In this document: piece by piece, positions 6,242 to 58,899 of the stretch
Numbering within the stretch: the stretch's first letter is position 1
How the letters are laid out: each line of letters starts with the position of its first letter
Assembly (NCBI RefSeq): GCF_016097555.1
Contig: NC_054707.1
Location: 49,127,711-49,191,710 of the forward strand
Direction: 5' to 3'
DNA: 64,000 nucleotides
Source: Gigantopelta aegis
Taxonomy: Eukaryota > Mollusca > Gastropoda > Neomphalida > Peltospiridae
Made by a program: the position numbers and the translations under genes
Notes under the pieces: generated by a model
Database searches by the model: none
Told to the model about the DNA's origin: nothing
The model's input: the letters and a program-made list of their open reading frames with translations, nothing else

Positions 6242-31294
<25,053 letters not shown>

Positions 31295-32204
31295 GAGCCA
31301 GGCATGAAAAATATACTGACACAACCTTCGACAGACTGGACAGTATAACAGCCAGGCATGAAAAATATACTGACACAACCTTCGACAGACTGGACAATTT
31401 AATAGCCAGGCATGAAAAATATACTGACACAACCTTCGACAGACTGGACAGTATAACAGCCAGGCATGAAAAATATACTGACACAACCTTCGACAGACTG
31501 GACAGTATAACAGCCAGGCATGAAAAATATACTGACACAACCTTCGACAGACTGGACAGTATAACAGCCAGGCATGAAAAATATACTGACACAACCTTCG
31601 ACAGACTGGACAATTTAAGAGCCAGGCATGAAAAATATACTGACACAACCTTCGACAGACTGGACAGTATAACAGCCAGGCATAAAAATATACTGACACA
31701 ACCTTGAACAGACTGGACAGTATAACAGCCAGGCATGAAAAATATACTGACACAACCGTGGACAAACTGGACAGTATAACAGCCTGGCATGGAAAATATA
31801 CTGACACAACCTTGGACAAACTGAACTGTCAAAAATCCAGGCATGGAAAATATTCTGACACAACCTTGGATAGACTGAACAGTATAACAGCCAGGCATGA
31901 AAAATATACTGACACAACCTTGGACAAACTGGACTGTCAAACAGCCAGGCATGAAAAATATACTGACAAAACCTTGGATAGACTGAACAGTATAACAGCC
32001 AGGCATGAAAAATATACTGACACAACCTTGGATAGACTGAACAGTATAACAGCCAGGCATGAAAAATATACTGACACAACCTTGGATAGACTGACAGTAT
32101 AACAGCCAGGCATGAAAAATATACTGACACAACCTTAGGCAAACTGAACAGTATAACAGCCAGGCATGGACCAAGGGCTTAGGCTATTTTTAGGGGTTAT
32201 TTTT

Positions 32205-38240: not shown

Positions 38241-41200
38241 TCAGTCGTCTTTCATCTTGGACTTGTCTCCGTCGTACTACAACACAGACAGAGAAACAAA
38301 TAGTGAAAGTTAAAATTTGTTTTGTTTAACAACACCACTAGAGCACATTTATTTATTAATCATCGGCTATTGGATGTCAGACATGGTAATTTTGACAATT
38401 TGACAATTTAGAGAGGAAACCTGCTACATTTTTCCATTAGTAGCAAGGGATCGTTTATTTGCACGGTCCCACAGACAGGATAACACATACCACAGCATTT
38501 GATATACCAGTCGTGGTGCACTGGCTGGAATGAGAAATAGCTCAGAAGGCCCCCTGATGGGGACTGATCCAAACCAACTGTGCATCAAGCTAGTGCTTTA
38601 CTAAGAACTGGGTAACGTCCCACCCCCAAATAGTGAATCACAAATATATCTAAATAAACACATGGATGTCATCAGAAACTTTTAAAAAGGATTTGTTCAA
38701 GGTCACGAACTAGTAAATTTTATGCTTGAATTTCTGTTTTCAAAGGAAAAAAAGAAAACAAATTGCCAAAAGGGGAGATCATTTAAACTGCCAAGCACCG
38801 TCTGGTGTTGTGTCTGGAACAGCAGGTCCACGGTTTATCCAAACAAGTTTAATGACAAACCATGGTGGGAATTGTGAACATATTTAAAGAAATAAAAACA
38901 AACAATAAAAGTGCTTGTTCATTTATAAATTAAAAGACAGTTTGAGCTCAGTTAAGACAAAATACAGTAATTTCCAAAACAGGAGCAAGTGCTTTAACTC
39001 TTTGGGGCCGAATCCCCGACCCACGTCGTGATGTTAATTTGCGCGAAATGTCGAGTCCCGCCTGTACGCGTGGTTTACAAGCAGTAGCTATTATCGAATG
39101 CCGACTGGAAGCGTGGCCGATTGTACATGTAAAACGAGACGTCATTGGCTAATATAATTAGAAGTTTTCATTATCAGCTTGTAGAAGATTAATCCAGTGA
39201 CCAATAAAAAGTAGTCTTACAACTGGGTTTGTTCATGCACCTCGTGGCTTTGTTCGGCTTTGAATTTTTTTTTAACAAAATGGACGACGACATATTTCTC
39301 AATTCTGATGATGATAGTATTTTGGAATTTGAAGGTTTCACGAACGATGACACACTCGATTTAAATAACAGTAATTCGGATGTAGACTTAAGTAGCGATA
39401 GTGACGACATACCATTGTCACATTTTCGAAATAGACGGAATATCGGTAGGACTCTTACACTGGCCCTTTGTGCTGGGTAAAAAACGGACATGTAAACAAT
39501 GCAGTACACAAGGCATTCGACGTGAGCCAGCCACAGGCTGTGAACAGTGCAATGTGAACCTGTGTGTTGGATGTTTCAAGCAATACCACAAAGCCAGATT
39601 TCCAGCATTGTTTCAGTGAAAAACTCCAAAATCAATCAGAACTTCCTGACAATTACCAGTAACGTTTATTAAAACTTTTGTTTATTTCTGTTATTTATAG
39701 ACAATTAAACTACTTTTTTACAATTACATCATATAAAATAATATATGTTCTTCGTTAATTGCACATAATTAAATAGCTGACAAAATTTGATGCAGATTTG
39801 TTTATTGATTAAGTTAAAGAGTTATTTTTGCTGCAGTGCATGAAATCTGTGTTTATGCTTTAGGGCACCAGCAGGTAAACACTGCCTAGAGCTGGAATTC
39901 AAAATGGCCACGAGGCCTCAAAGAGTTAACAGAACCAATAAACAGCTATGTGCCCACGCTTTATTTGAGCTAGGAAGCTATTTAATGGCTCATCAATTAG
40001 AGAAAAATTCTGATTACAAACACCTACCGTTGCCAGCTGTCTGCCAATGTTTCCCATGGTAACACCTCCGGAGAAGAAAATACAAGGAAGCCATGATCGC
40101 ACAAACAGGAAGTCTGGTTCTGTATACCTTTTAGCAAAAAATAATAATCATATAATACAAGACTTCTACAAGTAATAAATACTGTAACATTTCAAACATT
40201 TCAACATTTTTAAAAATTATCAATGACTTAAATTTAAAAAAAATATTTTCTGCTTATGGAAGTAGAAACAGAAAAAATTATAAAAGTCACAATTGTATTT
40301 TATATATTTTCTTTCTTTAGCAGTTTTGGGTTTGTGTAAATAAAAAAAAAAGTGATTAACGTTCTCAACTGTTTGCCAAATTGTTTTATTATAGTAATGT
40401 TCCATATATATGCTAATGGTATTTTCAATTCTGCCCGAGCATTCAACAGAGATGAAAATGACTGGAGAATAAATGTAGAAGACTATGCAGAGTCAAGATT
40501 ATTAAACAGTTTTGAGTACTGGTAACTATAGTCTGCTCAACAGGGAACAACCTTTTTTCATACTATGGAATTTACTTCAAGTTATTTATTTCTGAGCCGG
40601 TTGTTTTGTAACTTGCACACAAAACAATAGTATTGTTTTGTTATTTCTAAAACACTTTTACTTTTCTTCTTACATCAAACCAATCTGAAATTATTTAAAA
40701 AAAAACACTTTTGTAGAAGGATTGGACTGACTGCAGTAAAGAAAACCTGAATTTCAGACAAACGTAAAACTAAAATATTTTCCCCCCTTTTTCCTCTCTT
40801 TTAGGAATGAGACCAACAAAGTATGGGCATATTTCTGTAACAAAAGTATTAATATAAAACAAAGAACAAACCTATAAACCCCATTGTAAACTAGAAGTTG
40901 TGTGACAAATGTTGCCAAAACTGCGATTCCTACACCGAGGCCGAATCCACTGCGAGATCTGTCGAAGAGCCACCACAGACCAATGGACATTGCCGCTAAT
41001 GAGAGCGACAGCTGCATGTTATTAGCAAAGTCTATTTTGGCACTGGCGTGGTTGATTCCCACGAACACCGCAACACACCGCATCACTCCCGACCACTCCC
41101 TCTTGTAGTAATGAGCCTCACCCAGCGTACGATCAAGATACGGGTAGAGCAAGCCAATAATTGCTGAAAACAAGAATCAATATATATTTTAATACACATT

Positions 41201-44200
41201 TTACACGTCTAATTAGTCACTGCCAAGAGCAAAAATCAAGGTGAACTAAAGATCACTCTTCTTAAATAATTGCTAGGAGAGCAATCACATGAAGCTTCCA
41301 ATGAAATTAATTATAAATTAAATTGCATGGTGATCAAGTTCGCAGTTTTCCTAAAATGTTGCTGGGAAGTGGGAGTGATAACTTGTCTTGGCGAAGACTT
41401 ATTACACATTTCATTTTGAGTTTCACAGGGCTCAAAGTAAGTGTAGTTGCCATAGCCGCAATGTGAATTGCTGTAATTCAGGGGCTTTACTGACGAGTTT
41501 TTTGTCATTAGATAAAAATTACTGTTGTCTGTGGAAGGTATTGTTTTTTCTCTTCCTGATTTTGGTAAATTTCCATTACGATTTTAACATGCATTGTTTT
41601 CATATTTTTTCTAAAGTTTCCAAATAGTGGAAGTCTAAATTCAATCAAACTGAAATTTTTATGTATATGGATTTATTAATTTTTTTCAACAGGCAGCAAG
41701 GGATCTTTTATTTGCGCTTCCCACAGGCAGGATAGCACAAACCATGGCCTTTGTTGAACCAGTTATGGATCACTGGTCGGTGCAAGTGGTTTACACCTAC
41801 CCATTGAGCCTTGCGGAGCACTCACTCAGGGTTTGGAGTCGGTATCTCGATTAAAAATCCCATGCCTCGACTGGGATCCGAACCCAGTACCTACCAGCCT
41901 GTAGACCGATGGCCTGCCACGACGCCACCGAGGCCGGTATATATGGATTTAGGGTCTGTTCAACAACTTAACAATTATGTAAGACTTTGGTGGAAGTATT
42001 ATGGAATGCATTATTTAAAACTTATTTTTGTCAATATGTGCAAGCTTTAAGCATGAATTAAACATTCGTTCTTGCAATTTTCAAAGGAATACATACATAT
42101 AATTAGAGAGGAAACCCACTTCACCACTCAATGGGCTACTCTCTGTGATTAGCACCAAGCGATTTTTCTTATAAACATTATTCCACAGACTAAGGGAATC
42201 TATCACTGTTGTATAGATAAAGCAATCACTGTATCTATAATCTCACAACAGTGATCGATTCTTTTACTTGCCCACTTAATTACAACAAAACATTACTAAA
42301 CTAAGTTTAAGGTTTGTACAACACTAACAACTGCCAGTAGTAGGGGAGTATAGTAGGTGGTTACAGGTGCCTCGTAACATGTCAGTAACTATAAAACCCA
42401 CAGCTTTAGCTGATGGGAAATCACAGGCTAGTTGCATGGATAGCAACAAGAGACAAGGATCTGGGATGTGGAGGTGGACAGCAAAGGAAGTTGAACGATA
42501 GGAGTTGCCATACAAACTTATTTAATGATATGCGCAAAAATATCTTGTCCAAATTACCGTATTGTTCCTATTTGTAGCTCCCCCTCTAATATAAGCGCCC
42601 CCTATGATCACGAGAAATGTATCATGAAACGGTACCTGTAAAATAGTAAAACTGGCTTACCTGACTGCCGACTTGCAATGATTATAATCGGTAAACAAAT
42701 AAAATCCAAACAGGTGAAGCACTACGACACTAGTATGGGCGAACAGTATGTCACACATGTCGTTTATCAAATGTATGTCGCTGTTATCTCCACGCAGAAT
42801 GAACGCACGACACTCCGTTAACGCTGTTCAAAACCGGAAGTACAAACATACCGGTAGGTATTTACACCGACACCGTAACACCGTTTAAAAAACGGGTAAA
42901 TGATAACTAACTAAACTGCAAACTGGAGTCAAATATCAACAATTTAACTTTAACTAAACTTAAAACTGGAGTCAAATGACAATAATTTGTGTATACAGTG
43001 ACAATCGAAACGTGTCAGTTACAAACTACCGGTCAGAGCTATCGTAGTCTGTGCTGTCTGACTGATGATCCTCGTCGTCTGTGGAATCTCTGTGGAATAC
43101 ACTCCGTAGGCCCTATATGCCTACGTGCACAGTACCATGTATTTCGATAAATCAGCCGACGATGTACGGTACGCTACATCATTTCAACAAGAAAACGTCA
43201 CTGGTAGAGTGACTCGGCAGAAAAGCTTTTGAAGTCTCAGCAAGCCAGACGCATTGACAGTTTGATACGAGGATTTTTCACACGTATTACGAAACGTGTT
43301 CTAGTACTCTAATTAGCGCGCCCCGTTTGTGTTTTGCATCGCGCCCGGGCGCTACAAATAGGAACAATACGGTATGTGACAACATAAAAATGTAATGACT
43401 ATAAATAAAAAGTTGAAAATATTAATTTGCTAAAATATCTTTAAAATATTGATTAAATGCAGAATATAGCAAATTGACAAATAAATAATTTAACAAAATT
43501 CTGAGAAAAAAAGATGAGTTATGGTGTGAATTGTCATAATTATAGGATATTAAGCGAGCTTCCATTTTGTATGATGTTTAAATGTTCCAAGTAAACTGAT
43601 TTTCAATTATTACGAGCTTTAGTGAGTGACAATGAAAATTATTTCATGAGGGACATAAACATGATACGAAAGGGTAGCAAGTTTAATATCTTATTTATTA
43701 CCCATAATGGATTTCATTTATATCACTCAACTCGTTTGGTTCATGTTCCTGTAAGGTTATAGTGCACCAATTGACGAGTCGGTTCATGACGTCGAAGTGT
43801 TACATCCCACTTGGCATTCTAGTAGGATGTATCACTTTGATATGTACCACTTTGAGATATTTTTAACCATACAGGAAATAAAACATTTTATGATGTCGGG
43901 CATATTTAAAAATCATGCAGTCCCATGCAAAAGCTGGCTATTCTGTCCCGTGGGCAAGAAACAATAGTACATACCACAACCTTCGTTATGTACCAACTGT
44001 AGAGCACTGCCTGGAAGGCGTTATAGCCCAGTGGTCCCACCGACTAGACTGACTTCACATCAGGCAAGCACTTCACCACAGGGCTTTGTCCCACCCATAC
44101 TTAGAAAATGTATGGCATGGACACTCATGAAAATGTTAATAATTACAAACAGCTCCTTATGCACAAAAATTGAACTGAACTGCTTATTTTAAAACAAAAT

Positions 44201-44441
44201 CTACCAATATGCTGCTGAAATTAAATCATGTACATTACATGGAACCGAGTAAAAACTAACCTGCTGCAGTGCCACAGCTTGGAGCCACCCACCAGGCTGA
44301 CGAGAAGAGACTGGCCAGCACCTCTGGAGGGAACACTGTAACCTGGCGTTGTACTTGTAGAAGGTTTAAAACCAGGGCGAAGAAAACACCCACAGTGAAC
44401 AGCACAGCTCCTCGCATCACTAAACTCGAAGAGGAGGCCAT
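38241..44441 (-). CDS. INSIG: Insulin-induced gene protein (INSIG), 4 coding exons, 202 aa
   Basis: Minus-strand exons 44441-44261, 41163-40872, 40127-40028 and 38276-38241 (609 nt, all junctions in frame). INSIG is a multi-span ER membrane protein that, with sterol, holds SCAP/SREBP in the ER and targets HMG-CoA reductase for degradation. Family hallmarks are [20 protein letters not shown]-like [19 protein letters not shown] and [19 protein letters not shown], then [13 protein letters not shown]. Asp128 in FDRSRSG matches the Asp that vertebrate work finds essential for SCAP binding. The start [15 protein letters not shown] is short, closer to INSIG2 (225 aa in human) than to INSIG1. The C-terminus KMKDD is a KxKxx ER-retrieval motif. 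Introns hold SINEs, a piggyBac derivative and MITEs. Identification is firm; the 1 versus 2 paralogue name does not apply with confidence. Confidence 0.96.
38310..38627 (-). repeat. SINE, type A, full-length-like, minus strand
   Basis: The left end TTTTGTTTAACAACACCACT is the complement of tail A. The right end has GATGGGGACTGATCCAAACC and AACTGGGTAACGTCCCACCC. Located in INSIG intron 3. Confidence 0.8.
38994..39929 (+). mobile_element. Internally deleted piggyBac-type transposon with TTAA target duplication
   Basis: TTAA CTCTTTGGGGCC at 38994 and GGCCTCAAAGAG TTAA ending at 39929 are inverted terminal repeats flanked by the TTAA duplication typical of piggyBac. The 936-bp element keeps only the two ends of a transposase gene. 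It lies in INSIG intron 3 with its coding strand opposite to INSIG. Confidence 0.85.
39280..39619 (+). pseudogene. piggyBac transposase remnant: acidic N-terminus joined to Cys-rich C-terminus
   Basis: The reading [20 protein letters not shown] is the acidic N-terminal region common in piggyBac transposases, continuing to [11 protein letters not shown] at about 39450. From about 39475 a different frame gives [33 protein letters not shown] and a stop at 39619. That is the zinc-binding C-terminal domain. The DDD catalytic core (normally about 350 residues or more) is absent, and the two parts are in different frames. It cannot be a working transposase. Confidence 0.82.
40530..40742. mobile_element. 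MITE, TATAGTCAGTCCC family
   Basis: The interior CTTTTTTCATACTATGGAAT and ACATCAAACCAATCTGAAAT matches the copies at 3070 and 18552. The ends CTATAGTCTGCTCAACAGGG and GGATTGGACTGACTGCAG are worn. Located in INSIG intron 2, just downstream of its exon 2 donor on the minus strand. Confidence 0.6.
41690..41940 (-). repeat. SINE, type B, truncated tail, minus strand
   Basis: Matches the minus-strand copy at 2370-2731 from GCAAGGGATCTTTTATTTGC to CGACGCCACCGAGGCCGGTA. It lacks the distal tail. Located in INSIG intron 1. Confidence 0.8.
42557..43372. mobile_element. DNA transposon derivative with CCGTATTGTTCC inverted repeats, TA target
   Basis: CCGTATTGTTCCTATTTGTA at the left and TACAAATAGGAACAATACGG at the right are perfect complements over at least 20 bp, each flanked by TA. 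The 816-bp interior has no long frame. On the minus strand at about 43020-43090 a short stretch reads [20 protein letters not shown] then stop. That resembles the acidic C-terminal tail of pogo-like transposases (inference). Located in INSIG intron 1. Confidence 0.75.
43880..44096 (-). repeat. Diverged SINE, type A, minus strand
   Basis: GTACATACCACAACCTTCGT, TGTAGAGCACTGCCTGGAA and CACATCAGGCAAGCACTTCA match the minus-strand SINE body and head at low identity. Located in INSIG intron 1. Confidence 0.55.
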
Positions 44442-44587
44442 CTTCAGATTTCTTTTTTATAAAAAATAAATAAATAACAATGATAAATGAAGACAATGAT
44501 GAAAAAAATTAATTTCAGATCTATAGTACTTAGTACATCTTTGTATAAATTTATTAGTTTTAAAATACTAGCTCACTAAGCTACAAG

Positions 44588-46068
44588 CTGTGTTCTCGCA
44601 GCTCCATTTAAGTGGGGTGGCCCGCCCTGCTAATATTACATTTTACCACCCTTCTTTCACGTTCTCCGTCCTTTATTTTTCTGCGCCCCTCTTTATTTTC
44701 CAGCACCATACTTTATTTTACAGCACCTATCTCCGCAATTTCCAAATGCACACTTTTTTCTCACACATAAAAACCCCACACAACGATCAGTCTACACACT
44801 GGACACCAAAGGAAACAAGCTGTGTTGTGTACGAAAGAGCAATCGACGAAACATTTACGACAGTTACCTAGTGTTTTCCCTAGCTTGTTTTAGCATGGTG
44901 CAGCATGCACCATGCCTCAATAGTCTAGTACCATCTTGCCTTAATCAGCACCATGCTGCTCTGAGATTAAACAAGCCTTTTTCACTAATTAATTCTAAAA
45001 CTGCCTTTATGAAACACCCAAAAAGGTATTATTAATTAATAAAACATGCCTTTTATATCTTTTGCCATTCATTTATTAAAGCAAGCACATAAATTACATT
45101 AATGTTTATTTCAATTATTTTTTGTGTATTTTTAATGAAAAACAAATGCCCCAAAAGTGTTTGGTCTACCATGCCTTGCCAAATTTCTAGGGAAATCACT
45201 AACTACCGTAACGTAATTTAACAGTATTTTTAACAGCCTCTATTTTGTCCCACACCTGTATCCATTTGTATATTTAATACACACAATAAAAGTTATATTT
45301 TATTTGAGCAATGAAAACATTTTTATTTTTTATGGATTCGGCAATCTCAGAATTAAAACACCCCACTTATTTGGCGCCAAATTTGTCACATGATCAGGAC
45401 AGTCATTTTGTCTTTTGTTTCCACTAACTATCGTCTGATATTTTGTCCTCAATTGCAGATATAACTGGTTGATAATTGGTTGTAACTGATGATTTTTACC
45501 TTCTGTCATTGTTTATTCAGCAGTTCTTTATAAAATATTGTAAACTTTTCATTTTGGGGGGATATCACCGCTTATAAAAACAAAGGAAGTGGTAGTGTTT
45601 ATCATTAAAATCATTTATCTTGGGTGCCAATATATGCACTGCATATATATATTTATAATATCGAAATTACTTTTTATCAGCTGGTGATATTTTATCACAG
45701 CGATCGATTCATTCGATGAAGATGGAAATAACAAAAAATGTATCCGACATTAGGGGATCACTTTACAAACGTCGTATATCTTAAATTTTTTATTAAAATA
45801 ATAATATTAAAACTTTGATCGGTTCAGCAAAACCGGAATTGCCCATGAATGTCAGACCGATAACATCTTCAGTTCAATTAAAAGACGAGTCTGCTTGTAT
45901 TGCGCATAAACCTATTTGCACTTTTTTTGTAGGCAAAATAAGGAGTATGTCTTTCCATAAAGTCTACCAACACACAACAATATGGTAACCAAGCTCCCCA
46001 TACCTTTTTTTTTTGAAGGGTGTGGTGCAGCGCAGCCGCCCTCAAATTTTCACCCAGCAAGAACACTG
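44588..46068 (-). mobile_element. Non-autonomous DNA transposon-like repeat, second copy of the 22923-23929 family
   Basis: On the minus strand it starts CAGTGTTCTTGCTGGGTGAA at 46068. The far end at 44588 (CTGTGTTCTCGCAGCTCC, then TTTAAGTGGGGTGGC) looks like a worn inverted copy of it. Interior matches to 22923-23929 run over most of the length, interrupted by a nested insert at 44869-45201. No transposase is seen. It lies in the 5' UTR intron of INSIG. Boundaries are approximate. Confidence 0.55.
44869..45201. mobile_element. Nested MITE, TAGTGTTTTCCCTAG ends
   Basis: TAGTGTTTTCCCTAG at the left and CTAGGGAAATCACTA at the right are inverted repeats. Comparison with the copy at 22923 shows that the surrounding repeat is continuous without this block. 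The ends resemble hAT-type TIRs (inference). Confidence 0.65.
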
Positions 46069-46149
46069 AACAAGGTTAAGCATATGTGACTAGCCCAATG
46101 GCAATGCATGTTAAATATAATGCAAGTTGAAGTGCAAGAATTTTTTCTG

Positions 46150-46640
46150 TCAACTACCCCCAATTACTCGCCATTCGAGAGCTAGATGGACATTTGGACG
46201 GTTATGATTGCTTTCTCAGCCAGAGATATCTCTATAACGAAAACACAGAATGGCTGCCTACCACACAGTAGGCAAAGATTCAGCTCTAATGTACAAGAAC
46301 AATCTTAGGTTTTACGCTAAATACCTTTACATTGATGAAGAAACCCGTCAGCACATATCTATTTGACCAGAACATTATTGAAATGGGGTGCTGTCGGATT
46401 TCTTCCTATAGTGTGTATTAGTGGTTACTATGTGAAACATTTTTATCAGCAAACTAAAAAATTATCAATGTAAAGGTATTTAGCATCAAACCTTGGATTA
46501 TTGTTATATTAGAGCAGGAATCTTTGTCTATAATGCAGTCATTTTCGCTATGGACTCGTAGAGATCATAACTGTCCAAATGTCCTAGCTCTTGAATGGCA
46601 GAGTACCTGGCTATCTGTCAACTGCATAGGGCAACACTTT
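46150..46640. repeat. Fold-back repeat, GTAGGCAAAGATTC family
   Basis: The left arm (46150-46330: GAGCTAGATGGACATTTGG, TAGGCAAAGATTCAGCTCTA) is the complement of the right arm (46480-46630: AGAGCAGGAATCTTTGTCTA, AACTGTCCAAATGTCCTAGC). Single-arm relatives are at 32930-33170 and 47830-48200. No coding potential. Confidence 0.65.
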
Positions 46641-47164
46641 TGCTCATTAAAATTAAAAATAGATGTTTTACATTTAGGTTGTTTATTTTTAACTGAATTG
46701 ATCAGAATACATTCAATTAGACGTATAGTAGTGACAAAATGAAGAAAGTTCCTAATACATGCACTGTACTCCAGTTTATTGTTAACACTAACATAATTTA
46801 CGGCAATAGCCTACTGAATAGTTTTGCCCGTACAAAATTGAAAATGGGAAAGATACTTTTGGTTTATGGAACTAATACTATTCATTAAAACATGAGATGA
46901 GTAACCGTTTTGCTGTGTAGAAAACTGCATGTATTCAATTATAATAACTTTAGTAACTTATTTTCAATTTACTACATGGTTTCACCTACAGTAAGAGAAA
47001 TATTATACCTAATGACGACTTGAAATATTTTGGCTGGTTATCAACATCAGCTGATGTCAGTAACTAAAAAGATAAGCCTAAAATCATAAAACAATTGATA
47101 CTTTCTTAGCCTACAGTCTAAATATATCAACAGTGATGAGAGACTGAAAATACTAAACACTCAC

Positions 47165-47230
47165 CTGTAGCTACGGGGAATGATCTGAAAGTGGAAGACA
47201 ATATATTTACAATATTCAATCTGTCGATAT
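47165..47230 (-). other. Probable 5' non-coding exon of INSIG
   Basis: On the minus strand the sequence CCCCGTAGCTACAG|gtgagtg has a strong donor at 47165/47164 pointing toward the INSIG ATG exon. It sits about 2.7 kb upstream of the ATG and faces CCDC93. The right (TSS) end is a guess. Only a transcript could confirm it. Confidence 0.4.
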
Positions 47231-47529
47231 ACAAACAGCCGAGTATAATCGCACCATCTTACTCGGCTGACAGCTTTTAGCCAATCAACGTTTCACATCT
47301 AATCACGTGTATGCTCCCGCGTCAGTTCCATGAATGGGTCAGATGAGGTGCATATAGGTCATGTTCATAAAAATACACATCCGGGTTAACTTGTCAACCA
47401 ATGAACGTTTATGTATAACTCGCGCCATGTGTAAATTATGTCGGTCATCACAGGTCACAAATTCTACAAATACACATCCGGGTTAAAGCGCAGTAGTTTC
47501 CGTGAAGTCACATGATAATATGTATCAAA
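47230..47529. promoter_or_regulatory. Divergent promoter region between INSIG and CCDC93
   Basis: About 300 bp separate the likely first exons of two genes read in opposite directions. A 19-bp motif, AAATACACATCCGGGTTAA, occurs twice in the same orientation (47371-47389 and 47468-47486). CCAATCA/CCAATGA boxes are at 47281 and 47398, and an E-box CACGTG is at about 47303. No TATA box is obvious. I saw no convincing sterol regulatory element. Confidence 0.55.
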
Positions 47530-50500
47530 ATGGCCTCTTCCAGTATTTTTGCTGGTCGACCTCGAGCTCCATCAGCGAGATTTCCAACTCAAATCGATGC
47601 TGATGGCAGAGAAGTTGAGGTATAATATCATAAGAGAAATGTAACTGCACATTCTTCTCATCTTGAGGAGCATTGTTACCTGACTGCTAGCATATTTGAT
47701 AAAAGTATAAATGAAAAGGAGATCCACCCACCTCCACTCAAGTCAAACTGCTTTTATGGACAATTTCAGTTTGGCTTGATGTAAAAATAAAATAAAAATA
47801 GTTTTTGAAAGAACAAGAATGTATTTGCAATTTAATTTTTTTTAAATATAAATTTAAAAGCCAAAAACATTGACACACTACATAAAGAAACCTGTCAGCA
47901 ACTGCATATTTAACCAGAATGTATTAAGTTTTTTTCCTGTTGTGTTTGTTAGTGATTAATATGTGAAAATGTTTTTATAAAGGAACTTGAAAATGATCAA
48001 TGAAAAGGTATTTAATGTCAAAAATAGGATTTGTGTTGTAGTAGAGCGTTAATCTTTGATTATCATTTGGTAGGCAGAGATTTTGCAGAATTTAAATAGA
48101 ATGGTCTCTGGACGGTAATTAATGAGTGTTATAACTGTCCAAATGTCCATCTAGCTCTCTTATTGTCAGAGTACTCAGGCTACTGGTATGGCAGCTGTAT
48201 AGTGGCTAGGGGCACATCATCAATGTGCACATATGCAAATATTACCTCTTCTAGAATAATGGTGGGTGCACTTGGGCAGTTGACGTGTTCGCCAAAAGTG
48301 CCATATTCAATTTGCTGAAGATGTGCTATGCAATTCATTAGTGTTAGGATTAGAATACATCTGAAGCCATCCAAATAGTGAATATGGCAAATTGATCTTC
48401 TTACTTGTTTGACATAGTACTTTTTGTAGACAGCCGTTTAAATATTAGTCCCCTACCAGTCCATCTGTCTCTCCATTCTACATATTGTTTTCCAGATGTT
48501 TTTTTAACAATGCCTTAAGATATTGAGCTGACATTTTGTATATGAGTCTATCATGTACTGTTGCAGATCAAGTTTTACCTTCATGGTGATTTACCAATGT
48601 TTGACAGAGTTATGGCCCTTGAACTTAGGAGATACGAAAATTAGTTTTCCAGACCTTTTGTTTGTAGTATGTCTGAAGATATTGAGCAGAAACTTTGTGT
48701 ATAGCTTTATCACATTATGTTACAGATCAAGTTTAACTTTCATGACAATTTATCCATTTTTGAGAGAATTATAGTCCTTGAACATATATTTCTTTCCAAA
48801 AGCAGTCCTTTACCGTGAACAAAATAAAGGCAAGCTTCAAGATCACTGACCTGAAATGGTGCTAGGCAACCAATTACATGGAATTTTAAATAAAATTAAT
48901 AAACATTTTATTGCAAGGCGATCAGTTTATCGCTTTTCAGGTGAGTGTGAAAACTGAAAAGAGCCGTTTTAATGACTCAAATTACATATTATTATTATTT
49001 TATTTTTTTATCTTTCATCTTCCAGTGCCTGTGGTTTTGTTTGTATATGCAGTCTGTTTCTGGTCATCCTAATGTTTGTAGTAGCCCAGTCAGGAGTTTA
49101 CATCCCTAAAATTTTTGTACATACAAATTACAAGACAGTTAGGAAATGTAATTAAGTTTTAAATTGTAATATGTACTTTTAGTGATTAGCAAGGCTCTGC
49201 TAAGCCCGAAACACACAACAAATGGGTCTGGCATGTAATGCCAATACATCCTGCACATCATGCAGTGTTTGATAACAAATATATGAAGTTATCTGATGCG
49301 AAGACGAATGCCATTCAAACATTTTGTCTTCACATTAAGCAGTTTTTATCAGTTTCCAACATTGATTTTGGAAACGCCTTCATATTTTATTTTGCCACCT
49401 TGGTGTATCAAACCACCGAAAATTGTATTCAATCTTGTGCATCTAAAGAAAGATCGCACAGATGCAGTTATTTATAAACATTTCATGGAAATTCAAGAGA
49501 GGTACCATGAATACATCCCTGTTTACACAGACGGATCACGGGATGGGAATTCTGTGGCTTGTGCTACAGTTTTTCCATCAGACAATATAATTACCACGAG
49601 ATTGCCCGATTCAGCATCAATCTTTACTGCTGAAATGTGGGCAATCATTAAAGCCCTGGAACAGATTAAGAATGCATGTGCATCCAAATATATAATTTTT
49701 ATTGACTCACTTTCGTGTCTCCAAGCTTAACAGTATATGAAATTGGAGCATCCATTGTTTGGGATGGTGATACAAAAGGGTATGCAGTCAAAACGGCCCC
49801 ATGATGAAACGGCCCTGAACATGTAAGTCAAAACGGCCAAAGAAAAAAGTTAAAAGGGCCAAAGAAAATGGTCAAAACGGCCAAAGAAAAAAGTCAAAAC
49901 GGCCAAAAGAAATGGTCAAACGGCCAATAGGTACTATCACGTTAAATTAATTCCCATTAGTAATAATTAGTAATCAATATAGCCTATATCACAGGCAGTT
50001 CAAAAATATGTATCAAAACAACGGAATCACTGGTAACAATTTATTAGCCTACACAACGCAATTTACCGGACAAGTTCCATGTGGCGCTACTCGTCGGGGT
50101 GTCGTGCGTGCCCGCCCTGTAATTCATTATTTTAATAATTCAATCACAGAAAGGGAAGGGGGGGGGGGGGGGGTAGTGGACCATCTAGGCTTTCCGGGTG
50201 AGTGCGTATCATCTGAACGAGTTCCTAGTGGCGTTGCTCACCCGGGGGCCACAACGGGCCTGTCCCCCAATTTACTAATATAATTAAGACCACCAATTGA
50301 CCTTGTATTTGAAAAGACCGATAGACCGATCTTTGATACGGTCGGCAGGTAACCGCAATTAGCCTTTTAACTTCTACAGTGAGTGTATCGAGTTTGTATA
50401 AAATCTGCTTTACAAACATTTCATGATACCATTCGTGTTTTTATTAGGTAATCGGTTAGGTATTCGGAGTGTTTTAAGGCTCCGGCGGTTTTGTTAATTG

Positions 50501-53500
50501 TCAAATCAACAGGAGTAACTTTTCCTCTGCCCTGGGTAAAAAAAAAAAAAAAAAAAAAAATCACTGTGAGTTAATCTTGAAAGAGAGCTCTTCCTTAAAT
50601 ATCAATAAAATACTGGTTTAATGCAACCATAGTTTGTAATAAATAGTTTTCATCGTAAATGTATTTGTTAGCGTTCCCTCTCATTTTTGGGTTTTGGGCT
50701 TTGAGGTAGGGTTGGGGTGGGATGCCCTTTGCTTGGTGCAATCTCTTGTATAATGGCTTGGGCGATGTGTTTGAAATGGTTATAATAATAACTATTCATG
50801 TTTCTCCAAAACTTACCTGTACTTAAAATCTACATATTAACACAGATGTACTAGTACACTAACCACATATGTAGATTTTAAACTCTTTGTTTATTCAAAC
50901 ATAAATAAGACGCAGATAATATCCGTGTAGTGAGACCGTACTATAAAAACTGTCTTTGCACAGTTATCTTTCTCGACACTTGTGTAGATGAAATACATTT
51001 TTAAAGTATTATATCTAAGGCCGTCTTGACTTGATATCTGTATTGTATTATATTTTTCCCACAGCTCTTTACACTGGTCTCACATAATTGTGTAAATAAT
51101 ATTTTCATATACCAGTACTTACCTTTCTAACACCCAATAGCCGATATGTATTTTTGTGCTGGGGTGTCCTTAAACATTCATTCATTCATTCATTCATTCA
51201 TTCATTCATTCATTCATTCATTCATTCATTCATTCATTCATGTATTGCACCAGTCAAAAAAGAAACACTGAATTAAATATGACAAAATACTGAAGCTGAG
51301 TCTAGCTGGCGTTTGCAGTATTACTATGCCTTATTTGAAAATATCTTAACAGAAGCAACTAGTAAACTTAAGACCGTCTTTTAATTTGTTGATGTTGTAT
51401 TTTGTTGTAGGTTGAGACTCGTGAAGATGAAGAACAGAATGTTAAACTTCAGCAAACTATTGAACTTCTGCTTGCAGCTGGCTACTTCAGAGCACGAATC
51501 AAGGGGCTTTCTCCATTTGACAAGGTAACCATCTTCTCACTTTGTCAAAGTGGCCTTATTCTCAGTTTGACACAGTGACCTTATTCGCCATTTTTGAAGG
51601 TGACCTTGTTCTCCATTTGACATGGTAACCTTATTCTCAGTTTGACACAGTGACCTTATTCGCCATTTTTGAAGGGGATCTTGTTCTCCATTTGACATGG
51701 TAACCTTATTCTCAGTTTGACACAGTGACCTTATTCACCATTTTTCATCTGGCCTTGTTCTCCATTGGACATGGTAACCTTGTTCTCCATTTACCAGGGT
51801 GACCTTTTTCTCCATTTGTCATGGTAGCCTTATTCTCAGTTTGACAAGGTAACCTTATTTTCCATCCTGTATTTCATAAATTAAATTATCTACTAACACA
51901 CAGGATTACCAGCATTAGCATTTTGATAGCTAAAATACCCGCTTTTTACTGCTAAAGTAAGTCATATAAAATAATAGGAATTGTTATTCCACACCACCAC
52001 CGCCACCCGCCTGCTACCGTTTTGATCGGGCTGCTGGTGCTCCCTTGCACCTGCCAGTGCAGGCGGTCCCTCCTCTCCCCTCCCCCCACCTTTCCTGTCA
52101 TGGACGGAGGAGCCGGCTCTTGTGCCCACGACAGGCGTGCACTACAACAGCTTGTTCTGAATGTGCACGTAAAACCCTATGACATGATATGACATTCCAC
52201 ACTGTCATTTGTGCTTTTCATTATCGTGTACAGTGTTACATGTTATTTGTTACTGTTCTAACAAATTATTTGTTAACTTATACAAGACAAAGCAGACTGT
52301 TAAATTAGTACCTTATATAAACTTTTAAAATTTCAGCTATTAAATGGAAGTAATAAGAAATGATTGTAATATCACATGACCATGACATGGTGTGGCATGA
52401 AATAACTGTAATTAAAAATAGGTCTCGTTATCATTCTGTTGATGTTTCTAATGTCAGTCAAGTAAAAATTTAAATATTTCTAATTATAAAACATAAAAGC
52501 ATGAAAGAGTCTTCATTTTATATGAACATGTATACCAGTTTGTGGTCAGTATTATATGACAGAATTATTTTTTATCCAGGTTGTTGGAGGTATGACGTGG
52601 TGTATCACAACTTGTAATTTTGACTTGGATGTTGATCTGCTGTTCCAGGAGAACTCAACTATTGGTCAGAAGATGTAAGAGGTTTTTCCTTTTTTTTTTA
52701 CAATAAGTGGTACAGCTGCTGAACATTTGTATAAAATTGATGTAATAATTCACATTATTTTCTTGGACTTATTCATGTAGTTGATGCATTTAAAAATGAC
52801 AGTAAAAGAAAGTCTTCATTATAATTACCAACATATATATAGATAAATAATACATTTGGTAGCTATGCTGGAATAAAATATTTGTAAATTAGTTTCAAGG
52901 TTTCCACCAGAGTATAGAGGGTAAAATTATGTACCTGAAAATATTGAAAATTAATATACTCAAAGACAAAATTTATTGTGACATGGATTGTTTGGAGTAA
53001 TAAATTTGTGAATGGATTTATGGATGTAAACCAGAGAACATGTGAATGAAACAGCTCGAAGAAATGCAACCAAGCAGTTGTTGCAGCGATTGCATGCTTT
53101 GTGCAAGGAAACATGGAATATTCAGGAGAAATCCTGTCCAGTGTTCACCATAAAAGGCCAGACATTCAGTCGCAAATCATTGCCACTCTGTGCAGCCTTC
53201 AGAAGTCCAGAAGTCAGAAAAACACCATTAGTGAACTGTTTGATGCAATTTTGTCATGCCACGCCTTAGTGAAAATGACAGATGGCGAGTTATAGGGATG
53301 CTTGAATCTGGGACCTCGCAGCGTGACGTCGCACATCTGTTCAACGTCCACAGAAACACCACATGGCACTTATGACAATGATATTAACAAAACAACCAGG
53401 TCAGGGACCGTCCCTGTAGCGGCCGACCACCCGTGACAACCCCTTGCCAAGATACATGGATCCGAACCACACATCTGTGAAACAGGCTCCAGCCAGCAAC

Positions 53501-55029
53501 CCTCACAGCCTGTACCATCCCTTTCTTCAGCGTTTAGTGGCCTCAATGAGACGACGGTGCCAGGCCTGTATCAATGCTCAGGGTGGACACATACTGACTG
53601 TGTAAACGTCACTCCGGACCCCCTCTAGTGATGTGGCTTATTTGCATATGGCAGGTGCGCCCTTTTCATGGACTATTGCTCATTTCCATACCTTCGGACA
53701 TTTCTCTTTCCATGTTACAACGTCTCATACACGGCAGTAAAACTTATCATCAATTATCTTTGTCTTTTGTGTGTCACAATAACTTTTGCCTTTGAGTATA
53801 GATATATAATTTTTACAATGTATAGATAGATGATAGTAAGAGAACTGCTGTTTAAAGTTTGTCAAGACACATAAAATGAAGTGTCCAATTTGAAAACATT
53901 TCAAGCCCATAACCACCTATATGTATACTAGTAAGTGCACTTAAGGACAGTTTTGTTTTTATTACTTACCCTCAAATTATTTTCTATTATTTATCTAAAA
54001 AGACACATTAATTTAAAAATGTTTGTAATTATAATGCTGGTACTCATCATCAGACTTTTGTATTTGTGGGACCCAAGTGCAGTTACAATGTTGTTATATA
54101 TTTTGCAGATCGTTGACTGAAAAGATTGTCGCCGTCCTTCCCAAGATGAAATGTCCGCACCGTATTGAGCCTCACCAGATCCAGGGCTTGGACTTCATCC
54201 ACATATACCCTGTTGTGCAGGTACAGCCTCACAGAGCCTGGAAAATACCAAATCTTTGGCATCCGATAGTCGATGTGCTCTAGTGGTGTCATTAAACAAA
54301 ACAAACTTTTAACTTTCATAGATCCTGGAAACAGGAGAGGTGGAAAGGAAATGTTTTATTTAACGATGCACGAAACATATTTTATTTTACGGTTATATGG
54401 CGTCAGTGGGAGGGGTGGATGTATGGTATGGTTATGTGGTAGTAAATACAGTGAAACCAGACATCAATGGGACCAAGTAAAATGTCTACTTTTGATGGGT
54501 ATTCAGTTTACAGAGGTTCTGTTCTGTTCTGTATTACAAAGGGACCGTGAAAAAGGTCTAGTTTTAATGGGTATTCAGTTTACAGAGGTTCTGTGCTGTA
54601 TTACAAAGAGAACTTGAAAAAGGTCTAGTTTTAATGGGTATTCAGTTTACAGAGGTTCTTTGCTGTATTACAAAGAGACCTTGAAAAAGGTCTGGTTTTA
54701 ATGGGTATTCAGTTTACAGAGGTTCTGTTCTATGCTGTATTACAAAGGGACTGTGAAAAATGTCTGGTTTTGATGGAATTCCAGTTTATAGAGGGTCCAG
54801 TTTTGAGTGTTTCACTGTAAATTGCACGAAATCATAAAGTAATCATTATGTCGGATATTGTTTAAAACTAAAATTTAAAGTAAATCCTATGGTTTATGTT
54901 TTAAAAACAGATTATTTTTCTTTTTGACAGTGGTTGGTGAAAAGAGCAATTGAGACTCGAGAAGAAATGGGGGATTATATTCGATCATTTGCAGTTTCCC
55001 AGTTCAGCAAAAATCATGCTACACCAGAG
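47530..55029 (+). CDS. CCDC93: CCDC93, N-terminal part: first 5 coding exons (gene continues past the window)
   Basis: Exons 47530-47619, 51411-51524, 52580-52674, 54109-54220 and 54931-55029 give 170 residues in frame. CCDC93 is a subunit of the CCC complex (with CCDC22 and COMMD proteins), which works with Retriever and WASH to recycle cargo from endosomes. The match to human CCDC93 is very strong: [57 protein letters not shown], then [29 protein letters not shown] and [19 protein letters not shown]. This is the N-terminal NN-CH-like domain; the coiled-coil part lies to the right of the window. The start [20 protein letters not shown] is lineage specific. Intron 5 is at least 8.9 kb. Introns carry two Tc1 elements, SINEs and minisatellites. 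Confidence 0.95.
48440..48785. repeat. Dispersed repeat, two tandem copies of about 165 bp
   Basis: AAGATATTGAGCTGACATTT / AAGATATTGAGCAGAAACTT and CAGATCAAGTTTTACCTTCA / CAGATCAAGTTTAACTTTCA mark two diverged copies. Each ends near GAGTTATGGCCCTTGAAC or its variant. Confidence 0.6.
49200..49755 (+). mobile_element. LINE fragment: RNase H domain of a non-LTR retrotransposon
   Basis: In the frame through 49730 the protein has [14 protein letters not shown], then [19 protein letters not shown] (the first RNase H Asp in YTDGS), [15 protein letters not shown] (the Glu) and [13 protein letters not shown] (the second Asp). This is the usual C-terminal RNase H of jockey/I-like LINEs. An upstream part at 49200-49400 is in another frame, so it is broken. 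The reverse transcriptase is missing. Confidence 0.75.
49785..49935. repeat. AAACGGCC(AAAGAAAA) short tandem repeat
   Basis: About seven imperfect units of GTCAAAACGGCCAAAGAAAA of 20-25 bp. Confidence 0.75.
51178..51242. repeat. (ATTC)n microsatellite
   Basis: About 16 perfect CATT units. Confidence 0.95.
51506..51865. repeat. About 25-bp minisatellite copying the CCDC93 exon 2 donor
   Basis: Exon 2 ends TTTCTCCATTTGACAAG|gtaacc at 51524. The next 340 bp repeat this border about 13 times (TTCTCCATTTGACATGGTAACC, TCAGTTTGACACAGTGACC, and TTTGACAAGGTAACC near 51845). Several copies keep a GGTAACC donor core. Confidence 0.85.
51985..52190 (+). repeat. GC-rich insert, probable retroelement 3' tail
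   Basis: A 200-bp GC-rich island (CTGCCAGTGCAGGCGGTCCC, GGACGGAGGAGCCGGC) in AT-rich intron DNA ends with a TATGACATGATATGACAT short repeat. This resembles the 3' end of a LINE or SINE (inference). Confidence 0.45.
52957..53798 (+). mobile_element. Internally deleted Tc1-type transposon
   Basis: TACTCAAAGACAAAATTTAT at the left and the complement of ATAACTTTTGCCTTTGAGTA at the right form 28-bp inverted repeats with two mismatches, both flanked by TA. It holds only the two ends of a transposase. Located in CCDC93 intron 3. Confidence 0.85.
53256..53605 (+). pseudogene. Tc1 transposase remnant
   Basis: [19 protein letters not shown], then [15 protein letters not shown], is the N-terminal HTH of a Tc1 transposase; a stop follows soon after. 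A further piece reads [15 protein letters not shown]. At about 53546 the sequence jumps to the C-terminus [16 protein letters not shown]. The catalytic DDE core is deleted. Compare the intact copy at 55456-56463. Confidence 0.8.
54251..54308 (+). repeat. SINE tail A fragment
   Basis: GGCATCCGATAGTCGATGTG followed by CTCTAGTGGTGTCATTAAAC. The head is missing. It starts 31 bp after CCDC93 exon 4. Confidence 0.7.
54341..54412 (-). repeat. SINE tail B fragment, minus strand
   Basis: GAAAGGAAATGTTTTATTTA, then CGATGCACGAAACATATTTT and GGTTATATGGCGTCAG, is the complement of tail B. Confidence 0.65.
54448..54823. mobile_element. MITE of the CAGTGAAACC family with an internal tandem array
   Basis: Left end ATACAGTGAAACCAGACATC, right end GAGTGTTTCACTGTAA. 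Between them a unit of about 65 bp (TTAATGGGTATTCAGTTTAC, AGAGGTTCTGTGCTGTATTA) is repeated four times. Located in CCDC93 intron 4. Confidence 0.7.
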
Positions 55030-55280
55030 GTGAGTGTTAAAACCCATTTGTATGACTATTACATGTAGCTTAGGACCAGGTTTCCCCAAGTCTAGAGCAT
55101 CAGATGGTACTTAACAATTATACAAATGTAGCTGCCACAAGGAGAAATATTTTCAGAAATGTTTGGCATCTCAATGAGGTGATTTTGTGAGAAATAAATT
55201 TACATTGATATCACCAGGCAAGAATATAATATTTGCCTAATATGTTCATGCATCAGCTATACCATAGTCTGCAATGAACA

Positions 55281-56782
55281 TATACTCTTCAAAAGAAGAA
55301 ACGCAAAACCACATTGTCGTAACATTTGGAGAATTGATTTAATTATTGAATGGTGAGTCCGATAATTACCAAATGTTGCAGGATTGTTCACAATTCACTC
55401 TAGTCCATTGTGAGTAAGTGATAGGACACACCACCAAGGTCAAGGTCATCTGGAGTCAATACCGGGTGTGGCCTCCGCGTGTGTTGACAACTGCCTGGCA
55501 CCGCCTGCCCATTGAAGCAACCAGAGTACGGATGACGTCCCGGGGGATGGTGGCCCACTCGGCCTGCAAGGCTGCTGCCAGCTCGGGCAGGGTCTGGGGC
55601 TGTGGTTGTCGCTGTCGGAGGCGTCGGTCCAACTCGTCCCATAGATGCTCAATTGGGTTCAAATCCGGTGATATCGATGGCCAAGGAAGGACATTAATGT
55701 TGTTGTTCTGTAGGAAAGCCGTTGTGAGACGTGCTGTGTGAGGCCTGGCGTTGTCATGTTGGAACACTGCGTTGGCGTTGGCCATAACTGGAACGATGTG
55801 TGGCCGGAGGATCTGGTCAATGTAGCCCTGTGCATTCAGGTTGCCCTGCACGTGGACCAGGTCAGTTCTGCCAGTGTGTGAGATGGCTGCCCACACCATG
55901 ACACTACCCCCGCCGAATCTGTCCACTTCCTGCACACAGTTTGCCGCATAACGTTCACCACGACGCCTATATACGCGACATCTTCCATCATGACGTCGGA
56001 GCAGAAATCGGGACTCGTCACTGAACCACACCTGTCTCCATCGCAGTTGAGGCCATTGTCGATGAATCTGGCACCACTGCAGTCGGAGTCGACGGTGTTG
56101 TGGTGTTAAGATGACACCTCGAACTGGACATCTGGCACGAATTCCTACCTCACGTAGGCGGTTCCGTACGGTCTGGTCGGATATCCTGCGCAAACCTGGT
56201 ATTGCTGCGGCTGTGGAGGTGGCAGTAGTCAATCGTTCCCGAAGGTGGCGTACCCGGATGTAGCGGTCCTGCCCGGGGGTAGTGACCCGTGGTCGACCGG
56301 ATCTAGGGAGGTCACGTGTTGATCCATGTTGCTGATAACGGTCCCACAGTCTGGAGATGGTGCTTGGGGACACATGGAATGCCCTGGCAACGGCCGTTCT
56401 GGATTCGCCTGCGTCTAGTCGGCCGATGGCATTGTTTCTCTGCGGTTCACTGAGACGTGGCATGTCCTGGATTGTCAACTGTCGGCCAGATACAGAGGCC
56501 AGGCAAGCGAACACCCTGCACTTTTATACTGTCGGTGTTCATGTTGCACGTGCAGACAACGCACGTGCAGTGGTGACATGGTTTGCACGTGGCTGCGTTT
56601 TTGCGAATATTCACATTTTGGTACTTTATTGTACAGTAGCTGCGTTTTATCGAATGTAACCGTGGGAATATGTTTGGGACATGCAATGACCTTATATTCA
56701 CAAAGCATGAACCGGTAGGAAACATAAAATCGGAGTTATAACCCATTTGTACCCTTTTGCGTTTCTTTTTTTGAAGAGTATA
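55281..56782 (-). mobile_element. Tc1-type transposon, intact-looking
   Basis: TACTCTTCAAAAGAAGAAAC at 55283 and the complement of TTTCTTTTTTTGAAGAGTA ending at 56780 are inverted repeats; TA is duplicated on both sides. It is 1.5 kb long with a single uninterrupted transposase frame on the minus strand. The GC content is far above that of the surrounding intron. Located in CCDC93 intron 5, antisense to the gene. Confidence 0.9.
55456..56463 (-). CDS. Tc1 transposase, 335 aa
   Basis: I chose the start MPRLSEPQRNNAIGRL because the related copy at 53256 begins the same way; an ATG 17 codons upstream (56514) also exists. Paired helix-turn-helix DNA-binding region in residues 1-110 (TAVARAFHVSPSTISRLWDR), with the GRPRVTTPGQD linker. 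The DDE catalytic triad is complete: WFSDESRF, FQHDNARPHTA and SPDLNPIEHLWDELDRR, with 34 residues between the second D and E (DD34E, Tc1 type). It ends NTRGGHTRY. The length is normal for Tc1 transposases (about 340), which cut and paste DNA at TA sites. Confidence 0.93.
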   Translation of the reverse strand: MPRLSEPQRNNAIGRLDAGESRTAVARAFHVSPSTISRLWDRYQQHGSTRDLPRSGRPRVTTPGQDRYIRVRHLRERLTTATSTAAAIPGLRRISDQTVRNRLREVGIRARCPVRGVILTPQHRRLRLQWCQIHRQWPQLRWRQVWFSDESRFLLRRHDGRCRVYRRRGERYAANCVQEVDRFGGGSVMVWAAISHTGRTDLVHVQGNLNAQGYIDQILRPHIVPVMANANAVFQHDNARPHTARLTTAFLQNNNINVLPWPSISPDLNPIEHLWDELDRRLRQRQPQPQTLPELAAALQAEWATIPRDVIRTLVASMGRRCQAVVNTRGGHTRY

Positions 56783-57071
56783 CATCACCAATGCACAGCT
56801 ATTGTTCACAATATAAATATATGATATCATGCTAAATAGTTTGTCATCGATGGTTAACGTATGTTACTGACTGTCAGTAAGCCACCTTCTATTGATTTGA
56901 ATAAATTCTTGTGGGGAACTAAATTTGCAATTAAATTATGATTTGTGTATTTTTATTTGAATTGTTTTTAGAACAGTATGTCCTTGTACAGTTTTTGAGG
57001 TGTAAACGTTACAGAATTTAAACATACTAATAATAGTGCAGAAAACTTTATGCTGTAATGCAGAGTTGTGT

Positions 57072-57117
57072 CTCACCCCCCCCCCCCCCCACCCCACCCC
57101 ACCCCACCCCACCCCCA
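57072..57117. repeat. Poly-C / CCCCA tract
   Basis: A C run at 57077-57090 followed by CCCCA repeats. Located in CCDC93 intron 5. Confidence 0.9.
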
Positions 57118-57179
57118 GCCTGTGCAGGGATCTCAAGGTTATAGGATTGATTGTTCATAATTTATCCAATAGCTTATTT

Positions 57180-58210
57180 CCTATTCCAACTATTGCTCAT
57201 TGACTGGTGTATTGGAGGTCATGGTATGTGCTGTCCTGCTTGTGGGAAAGTGTATACAACATTCTCTTGTTACTGCAGTGTACATGTCAGGGCTCAAATT
57301 AGCAGCCTGTAAAAAGTGAAAATCAGTCCATGTTTTTAGATTTAGCAGGTGAAATAGATATTCACCTGTTAAAACCAAAAGGTCATTTTCAAGAGGCAGA
57401 TTTATGTACGATTATCTCAGCAGCAATTTATCTCAAGATCCCATTACATTTTAATTCCATAATACTCTAAAATACATCTCGGAGATCCTAGTTTTTCCAA
57501 CACAATCTCAAACCTCATGCTGTCATATTTCCAGCAGGCCATATGTTTTTTTCGCAGGACATATTTCTCATGACCTGCTATTTTAAAAACAATAGCAGGT
57601 CATATTTTACTTCCTGTTGAAATCAAGCCATGAGGTGGTGACAATGGATTTTGTTTTTCTAACTCTAGATCTGTTATTTTCACTTAATAGTAATACTGCC
57701 ATGCTGTGTACGGTATAAAAGATCCCTTGCTGCTGATCAGAAAGAATAGCCCATTGCATGGTGGCAGTGAGTCTCATTATCTGTGTGGTCCTCAACCATA
57801 CATTGACAGCATATAACCGTAAAGAAAATGTGGTCACGGCATCAAATAAATCAGTCCTCGGCTATCTTGGCTGGACAGTGGTTGGTTGTTAGTGGATAGT
57901 GAGGGAGACGTTGTGTAATGGCCTTACACCTCAGTAAATTGTTAGCCTTTACAACTTCTTTTGAGTAGCAGGATCGAACCACCTCGGCGGATCCATTCAG
58001 TTGATTGTGTTTTTTCCCATTCTAACTAGTGCACCATGACTGGACAAAGACCGTGGCATGTGCTTTCCTGTCTTTGAGGAAGTACACATAAAAGATCTCT
58101 TGCTGCGTTAGGAAAAATGTAGCAGGTTTCCTTTGATGACTACAAGTCATAATTACCAAATGTTTGACATTAATTAATCAATGTGCTCTAGTGGTGTCAT
58201 TAAACAAAAC
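57180..58210 (+). repeat. Mosaic of SINE fragments
   Basis: Pieces in order: a type A body (57200-57290), a body and tail B (57690-57860: AAAAGATCCCTTGCTGCTGA, ATATAACCGTAAAGAAAATG), a type C piece (about 57860-57970) and a type A body with tail A (57975-58210: TGTGCTCTAGTGGTGTCATT). Each is diverged. 57290-57680 has no clear feature. Confidence 0.6.
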
Positions 58211-58308
58211 AAACAGTTTTCTTTTTTTTTCTTTTGGGTGAGAGGCAATACCCAGATGCAGACCCAGTACATTCTTGCCTTACGGTCAGTTAGTGGCTAG
58301 ATCCACCA

Positions 58309-58467
58309 TGCCACTATGACTGGTCTTAACCACCATGCCACTATGACTGGTCTTAACCACCATGCCACTATGACTGGTCTTAACCACCATGCCACTATGA
58401 CTGGTCTTAACCACCATGCCACTATGACTGGTCTTAACCACCATGCCACTATGACTGGTCTTAACCA
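58309..58467. repeat. 27-bp minisatellite, 6 copies
   Basis: The unit CATGCCACTATGACTGGTCT plus TAACCAC is repeated perfectly. It resembles the SINE C head (GATGGCTTAACCAC) from which it may have expanded. Confidence 0.95.
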
Positions 58468-58489
58468 CTGTTCTGTTTGTTTATTTCTA

Positions 58490-58890
58490 CCTAGTTTTGA
58501 GCTTATATACAGTTAAAGTTCTGGGCACACACCTCATCTATCTGGGCTCTCGGTCCAGGACAGTGGTTAGTTGTTAGTGAGAGAGAAGTCGGTGTAGTGT
58601 CTTTACACCTACCATTGAGTTGTTAAACTCACTCTGGGTGGGAGCCCTTATCCGGATATGAACCCTGTATCTAGCAGCCTAAGTCTGATGCAGGTGTATG
58701 TACTTGGATGCCTTTAGGGGTTGAAACCCCCGTGTTTAAGCAAACAATTTCTCTCTTTTTTGTTTTAAATATATTTTCCAGTGGAGCATGACACATCCCT
58801 TCACTGTGAAGTTTTTAGACCCCTCCTCCCACTAAAACTCCTCCACATGTGCCTGCTAATAGCTTATCCACTACACAACCGAGGCTGGTA
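58490..58890 (-). repeat. SINE, type C, with an insert, minus strand
   Basis: CTGGGCACACACCTCATCTA, GTGTCTTTACACCTACC and ATATGAACCCTGTATCTAGC match the family. The head complement CTACACAACCGAGGCTGGTA is separated by about 160 bp of other sequence. Confidence 0.6.
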
Positions 58891-58899
58891 CGATCATCA

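Follow-up and report, generated by a model that had tools for sequence, protein, structure and literature searches.

A divergent INSIG-CCDC93 gene pair with a putative shared promoter in the gastropod Gigantopelta aegis

Why should two genes stand head to head both in a mollusc and in human? The question is raised by a stretch of 64,000 nucleotides from the genome of Gigantopelta aegis (NC_054707.1; hereafter the window), in which INSIG is encoded on the minus strand and CCDC93 on the plus strand, with their 5' ends facing each other. The human genes INSIG2 and CCDC93, on 2q14, are presumably also divergent and in the same orientation. The original prediction, made from the letters of the window, attributed this linkage to a promoter shared by the two genes and selected for the joint control of cholesterol synthesis and uptake. 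The window corresponds to C9:49127711-49191710, i.e. to 49.13-49.19 Mb of an 84.9-Mb contig (C9), in an assembly of 1.149 Gb in 5216 contigs. It contains no N bases, and we saw no sign of a misjoin at the locus, no test aimed at misjoins having been run.

The divergent arrangement itself was confirmed, with strong identities for both genes on opposite strands of one contig. INSIG is complete in the window: its joined exons match human INSIG2 (E 1.4e-102) and the full length of the Pfam family INSIG (PF07281, profile positions 1-211 of 211, E 4.8e-49), and a family search of the whole assembly returned two matches, both of which are exons of this gene. Position 38241, at which the original prediction had set its boundary, is the final base of the putative INSIG stop codon. 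For CCDC93, of which only the 5' part lies in the window, exons 2-5 match the human protein (E 7.6e-76), and the family CCDC93_N is matched on the plus strand over its whole profile (PF21673, positions 1-110 of 110, E 5.7e-41). The gene combines this N-terminal domain with downstream coiled-coil exons, which were located by tblastn with a homologue encoded on a separate contig of 55 kb (C1134); the CCDC93_N search of the assembly gave four matches, two at this locus and two on C1134. The original prediction had closed CCDC93 at 55029, but this position marks just where coding exon 5 stops. Past an intron of about 20 kb, additional exons were located from 75212 to 103529 in coordinates extended past the window, reaching about 39.5 kb beyond its end. 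In the 20 kb past the last exon found, no host gene was recognised by eye among ORFs (open reading frames) of at least 75 aa. Among viral and prokaryote sequences, pattern searches aimed at CCDC93 relatives gave 5 and 52 matches, respectively, none of which was confirmed. The large CCDC93 intron carries a Tc1/mariner-type transposase (55459-56523, minus strand) with an open frame of 355 aa (DDE_3, E 2.7e-17), and a second, similar frame of 354 aa was found by eye at 93354-94415 in the extended coordinates.

The start codons of INSIG and CCDC93 are 3089 bp apart. In the interval, ten ORFs with lengths of 52-133 aa were compared with Pfam (smaller ORFs fell outside the scan) and gave no match, hence there is no recognised gene between the two. 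On the minus strand we found a perfect splice donor (CAG/GTGAGT), from which an INSIG intron would begin at 47164, and which delimits a candidate noncoding first exon of INSIG. Only if this exon is real would the two genes share a region of at most 365 bp. The compact promoter-like patch proposed in the original prediction is present, while its figure of about 0.3 kb depends on the candidate exon. The patch is CpG-rich: the observed/expected CpG ratio is 1.18 at 47231-47530, a value equalled or exceeded by 47 of the 1274 bins of the window, and it amounts to 1.18-1.25 between the genes (1.19 at 47201-47600), with 0.26-0.77 in overlapping or neighbouring bins over 46401-47300 and 0-0.37 over 47601-48300. 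Ten motif patterns were tried on 47165-47529. Two NF-Y boxes were found, and 4 of 1000 dinucleotide shuffles and 22 of 1273 window bins contain as many; of the two sites sought as marks of a bidirectional promoter, NF-Y and GABPA, only the former contributes. ETS-like sites with a GGAT core are also present, in a wider form (CCGGAW) that was reached in 29 of 1000 shuffles and with a core that was picked after inspection of the sequence. The motif CCGGATGT occurs twice on the minus strand (Table 1), and a YY1-like site lies at the CCDC93 start codon. A search of the genome with 47165-47530 returned a single match, which indicates that the patch is not a known repeat, and that explanation was ruled out. 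A promoter shared by INSIG and CCDC93 is probable in this genome.

The two genes could instead possess separate promoters, with INSIG starting near 44.45 kb, CCDC93 alone using the patch at 47.2-47.5 kb, and their adjacency simply inherited. The noncoding exon of INSIG is a prediction, and perfect 9-base donors (MAG/GTRAGT) are found elsewhere in the 64 kb, on both strands (five in total, three on the minus strand and two on the plus strand), which speaks for this possibility. However, the perfect donor used here lies at a fitting place and on the fitting strand, an acceptor-like tract stops 10 bases ahead of the INSIG ATG, and the CpG ratio around the INSIG start codon (0.64-0.79 over 44401-45000) is well below that of the patch. 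We regard separate promoters as unlikely.

The patch also contains two abutting units of about 100 bp, the diverged products of an old tandem duplication. Their alignment shows 74 identities in 95 ungapped columns, with 23 gap columns, and its score was reached in none of 500 base-composition shuffles and in 3 of 500 when a 19-base core was masked. This core belongs to a 22-base block which, together with the stretch around the NF-Y box, is the best-kept part of the two units. Exact copies of the core occur only at these two sites in the genome; its role as a genome-wide promoter element was rejected, as 12 matches with at most two mismatches compare with 13 for the reversed control. TRF reported no rows for 47000-47700. 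The window is rich in tandem repeats, and 293 of its 2552 bins are at least as self-similar as the duplicated region, so that the duplication alone is no proof of function. A Fisher test on the conserved blocks is given no weight, because the blocks were chosen after the alignment had been viewed.

Turning to the human locus, adjacency of the two genes is supported by a table of single-nucleotide polymorphisms (SNPs) and by the content of a topologically associating domain (TAD) (PMC3314660, PMC8072367). For five SNPs lying between the human genes, PMC3314660 tabulates the distance to CCDC93 (two SNPs) or to INSIG2 (three SNPs), and arithmetic on these values places the edge of CCDC93 at about 118,488 kb and that of INSIG2 at about 118,562 kb, leaving a gap of about 74 kb. 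Across such a gap a 0.3-kb shared promoter cannot hold the pair together in human, and the original idea that it accounts for the human linkage has to be abandoned. The linkage itself is likely to be old. The interpretation we favour, with somewhat more confidence than doubt, is that of an old divergent pair with one compact bidirectional promoter in this genome, which became loosened in vertebrates. According to this interpretation, INSIG and CCDC93 would have inherited their linkage from a common ancestor, and a single compact, presumably open, CpG-bearing patch of at most 365 bp would drive their divergent transcription, with predicted start sites and a presumed shared activity. The promoter would be of the housekeeping type, with NF-Y boxes, an E-box and ETS-like sites, and INSIG would be transcribed through its noncoding first exon. 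The pair may have been kept because a split would harm the promoter of one gene or the other. On the way to human the bond would have widened to about 74 kb, which agrees with published accounts of vertebrate promoters becoming disentangled after genome duplication.

A bolder version of this interpretation would have a pair-specific bond present throughout Bilateria, outliving the outer neighbours and tying sterol sensing in the endoplasmic reticulum to endosomal receptor recycling, with two cassettes of about 100 bp (an NF-Y box and the TAMAAATACACATCCGGGTTAA block in each), each perhaps serving one gene, and with the shared promoter lost in vertebrates after genome duplication. We consider this version doubtful.

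The reading of the original prediction, that the promoter has been kept from mollusc-like animals to human and co-regulates sterol synthesis (INSIG) with lipoprotein-receptor recycling (CCDC93), appears quite improbable. It draws on the compact divergent region found here and on human genetics, where both genes are discussed in connection with low-density lipoprotein cholesterol (PMC6995538); cholesterol co-regulation is a guess derived entirely from human disease literature. In the same source the lipid role of human CCDC93 runs through LDLR. Among the literature matches listed, judged by their titles and the starts of their abstracts, we found no claim of conserved synteny or of a bidirectional promoter for CCDC93 and INSIG2. 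Three patterns of the sterol regulatory element (TCACNCCAC, ATCACCCYAC and TCAYNCCAY) gave no match in 47165-47529, with a chance expectation below 0.1, elements elsewhere being outside the search. With the human genes about 74 kb apart and no shared promoter there, there is no support for a cholesterol-linked switch conserved between molluscs and humans.

Alternatively, the pair could be a bystander retained inside an ancient regulatory block of engrailed, and in human EN2 lies near INSIG1. This possibility is raised by the human TAD of EN1, whose protein-coding content, apart from EN1, consists of INSIG2 and CCDC93 (PMC8072367). In the present assembly, however, all three engrailed matches are on another contig (C11:10.67-10.78 Mb) and none is on C9, where the pair holds without engrailed. 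We therefore rejected the bystander explanation for this genome and attach very little probability to it overall; it could still explain the retention of the pair in vertebrates. PMC2869348 lists DDX18, INSIG2 and CCDC93 as genes of a single human region. None of five DDX18-type (CTE_SPB4) matches in the assembly falls on C9, one being on C782, a contig of unknown place; these are family-level matches, none of them assigned to DDX18, and the family also yielded a match below the cut-off in 1 of 14 control genomes. The location of the engrailed and DDX18-type matches off C9 favours a tie specific to the pair over an engrailed bystander effect. As a separate observation, the three engrailed-class homeobox genes share a strand and span about 105 kb (C11:10674021-10778892), with a homeodomain readable in each, and look like a local expansion of engrailed. 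Finally, although our comparison covers only two lineages, independent adjacency of the pair in both is extremely unlikely, as we estimate the chance at about 1 in 10,000-15,000 under random order of an assumed 20,000-30,000 genes, about 1 in 40,000-60,000 for a head-to-head arrangement under the same assumption, and, for adjacency of two members of a single ancestral linkage group with about 1000 genes, about 1 in 500.

The second CCDC93 gene, on the 55-kb contig C1134, has a frame break in one exon. Six of its introns were measured (45-270 bp), and the GC fraction is 0.32 in a 9-kb stretch around the gene (0.30-0.35 by stretch). Upstream and in the same direction lies a tyrosine phosphatase with Ig- and FN3-like frames (recognised by eye), and downstream a DUF2368 gene. 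C1134 looks foreign to the assembly; our guess at its source is a sponge-like guest, although the gene may also be a paralogue.

Several observations weigh against a single, anciently conserved promoter for INSIG and CCDC93. The comparison comprises two species, this one and human, the human strands being presumed, and the INSIG noncoding exon 1 and both start sites are predictions from sequence. A tblastn search for INSIG on the 55 kb of C1134 gave only chance-level hits (E 3.1 or worse); should C1134 come from another animal, the pair would not be universal. The window contains 11 CpG clusters, of which the patch is one, and the bin 45601-45900, in the putative INSIG intron, exceeds it with a ratio of 1.60. 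Strict GABPA, E2F and SP1 sites are absent from 47165-47529 (0 each), and the single CACGTG is matched or exceeded in 123 of 1000 shuffles. The region is also TATA-less, with no TATAWA, which is weak evidence, as about one match is expected by chance (shuffle mean 1.07). Moreover, with one CTE_SPB4 match on the unplaced C782 and DDX18 not singled out among the five, the negative result for DDX18 is weaker than that for engrailed.

Table 1. Features of the INSIG-CCDC93 locus in window coordinates (position 1 is the first nucleotide of the 64,000).
Feature	Position	Strand	Basis or remark
INSIG coding exon 4 (11 codons + stop), encoding a short C-terminal tail	38241..38276	-	prediction based on splice acceptor, reading frame and length
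INSIG coding exon 3	40028..40127	-	family search, INSIG2 match, exon model
INSIG coding exon 2	40872..41163	-	family search, INSIG2 match, exon model
INSIG coding exon 1, start codon	44261..44441	-	INSIG2 match, Pfam, exon model
Candidate INSIG noncoding exon 1	47165..47230	-	donor CAG/GTGAGT; start at 47230 as guessed in the original prediction
Putative shared bidirectional promoter region, at most 365 bp	47165..47529	.	candidate INSIG noncoding exon 1 inside its low-coordinate end
Tandem unit A, 116 bp	47274..47389	+	NF-Y box 47279, CACGTG 47304, CCGGATGT on minus strand at 47377
Tandem unit B, 97 bp, diverged copy of A	47390..47486	+	NF-Y box 47396, CCGGATGT on minus strand at 47474
CCDC93 coding exon 1, start codon at 47530	47530..47619	+	prediction based on reading frame and splice donor; not within the human CCDC93 match; exon-1 peptide of C1134 gave no match
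CCDC93 coding exon 2	51411..51524	+	human CCDC93 match, C1134 homologue
CCDC93 coding exon 3	52580..52674	+	human CCDC93 match, C1134 homologue, exon model
CCDC93 coding exon 4	54109..54220	+	human CCDC93 match, C1134 homologue, exon model
CCDC93 coding exon 5	54931..55029	+	human CCDC93 match, C1134 homologue

Elsewhere in the window, a series of exon-like frames at about 8600-33000 on the plus strand could represent one or more long genes; one frame looks VWA-like by eye, and the pieces scanned against Pfam gave no match. A tandem repeat at 31200-32200 is open on both strands and codes for repeated peptides. In the assembly at large, the beta-sandwich domain of molluscan haemocyanin has five matches, which are found only on C2783 and C5121, taken from their numbers and coordinates to be small unplaced contigs, and which could be of host or contaminant origin.

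If the INSIG-CCDC93 pair proves ancient across phyla, it would offer a natural test of why neighbours stay linked for hundreds of millions of years, the bond being found here without engrailed alongside and stretched to about 74 kb in human. In that case the pair would also allow one to examine whether animals ever placed sterol sensing and endosomal recycling under joint control. At present, it represents one more likely ancestral bidirectional pair of a kind already described. Among the closest known systems is the human INSIG2-CCDC93 locus itself, where the two genes are neighbours as they are here, presumably in the same orientation; it differs in its wide gap and in the TAD common with EN1, as opposed to at most 365 bp between the predicted transcription units and engrailed on a different contig in this genome. 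Human bidirectional promoters are enriched 5.3-fold in NFY and 7.1-fold in GABPA sites, according to PMC3121118; the region described here resembles them in its two NF-Y boxes and differs in lacking strict GABPA, E2F and SP1 sites, its ETS-like sites having a GGAT core. Bidirectional promoters serve 25% of adjacent protein-coding genes in amphioxus but 12.83% in mouse and 7.84% in zebrafish, and of 372 such promoters regarded as putatively ancestral most have been lost in vertebrates (PMC6292497). INSIG and CCDC93 resemble these ancestral metazoan promoters, disentangled in vertebrates, in their 5'-to-5' arrangement, short gap and CpG-bearing patch here and in their distance in human, although the start sites are predicted and the pair is placed by its arrangement rather than by comparison with the published pair lists. 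With this limit, INSIG-CCDC93 likely fits the published class of ancestral bidirectional pairs, tight in Gigantopelta and loose in human.

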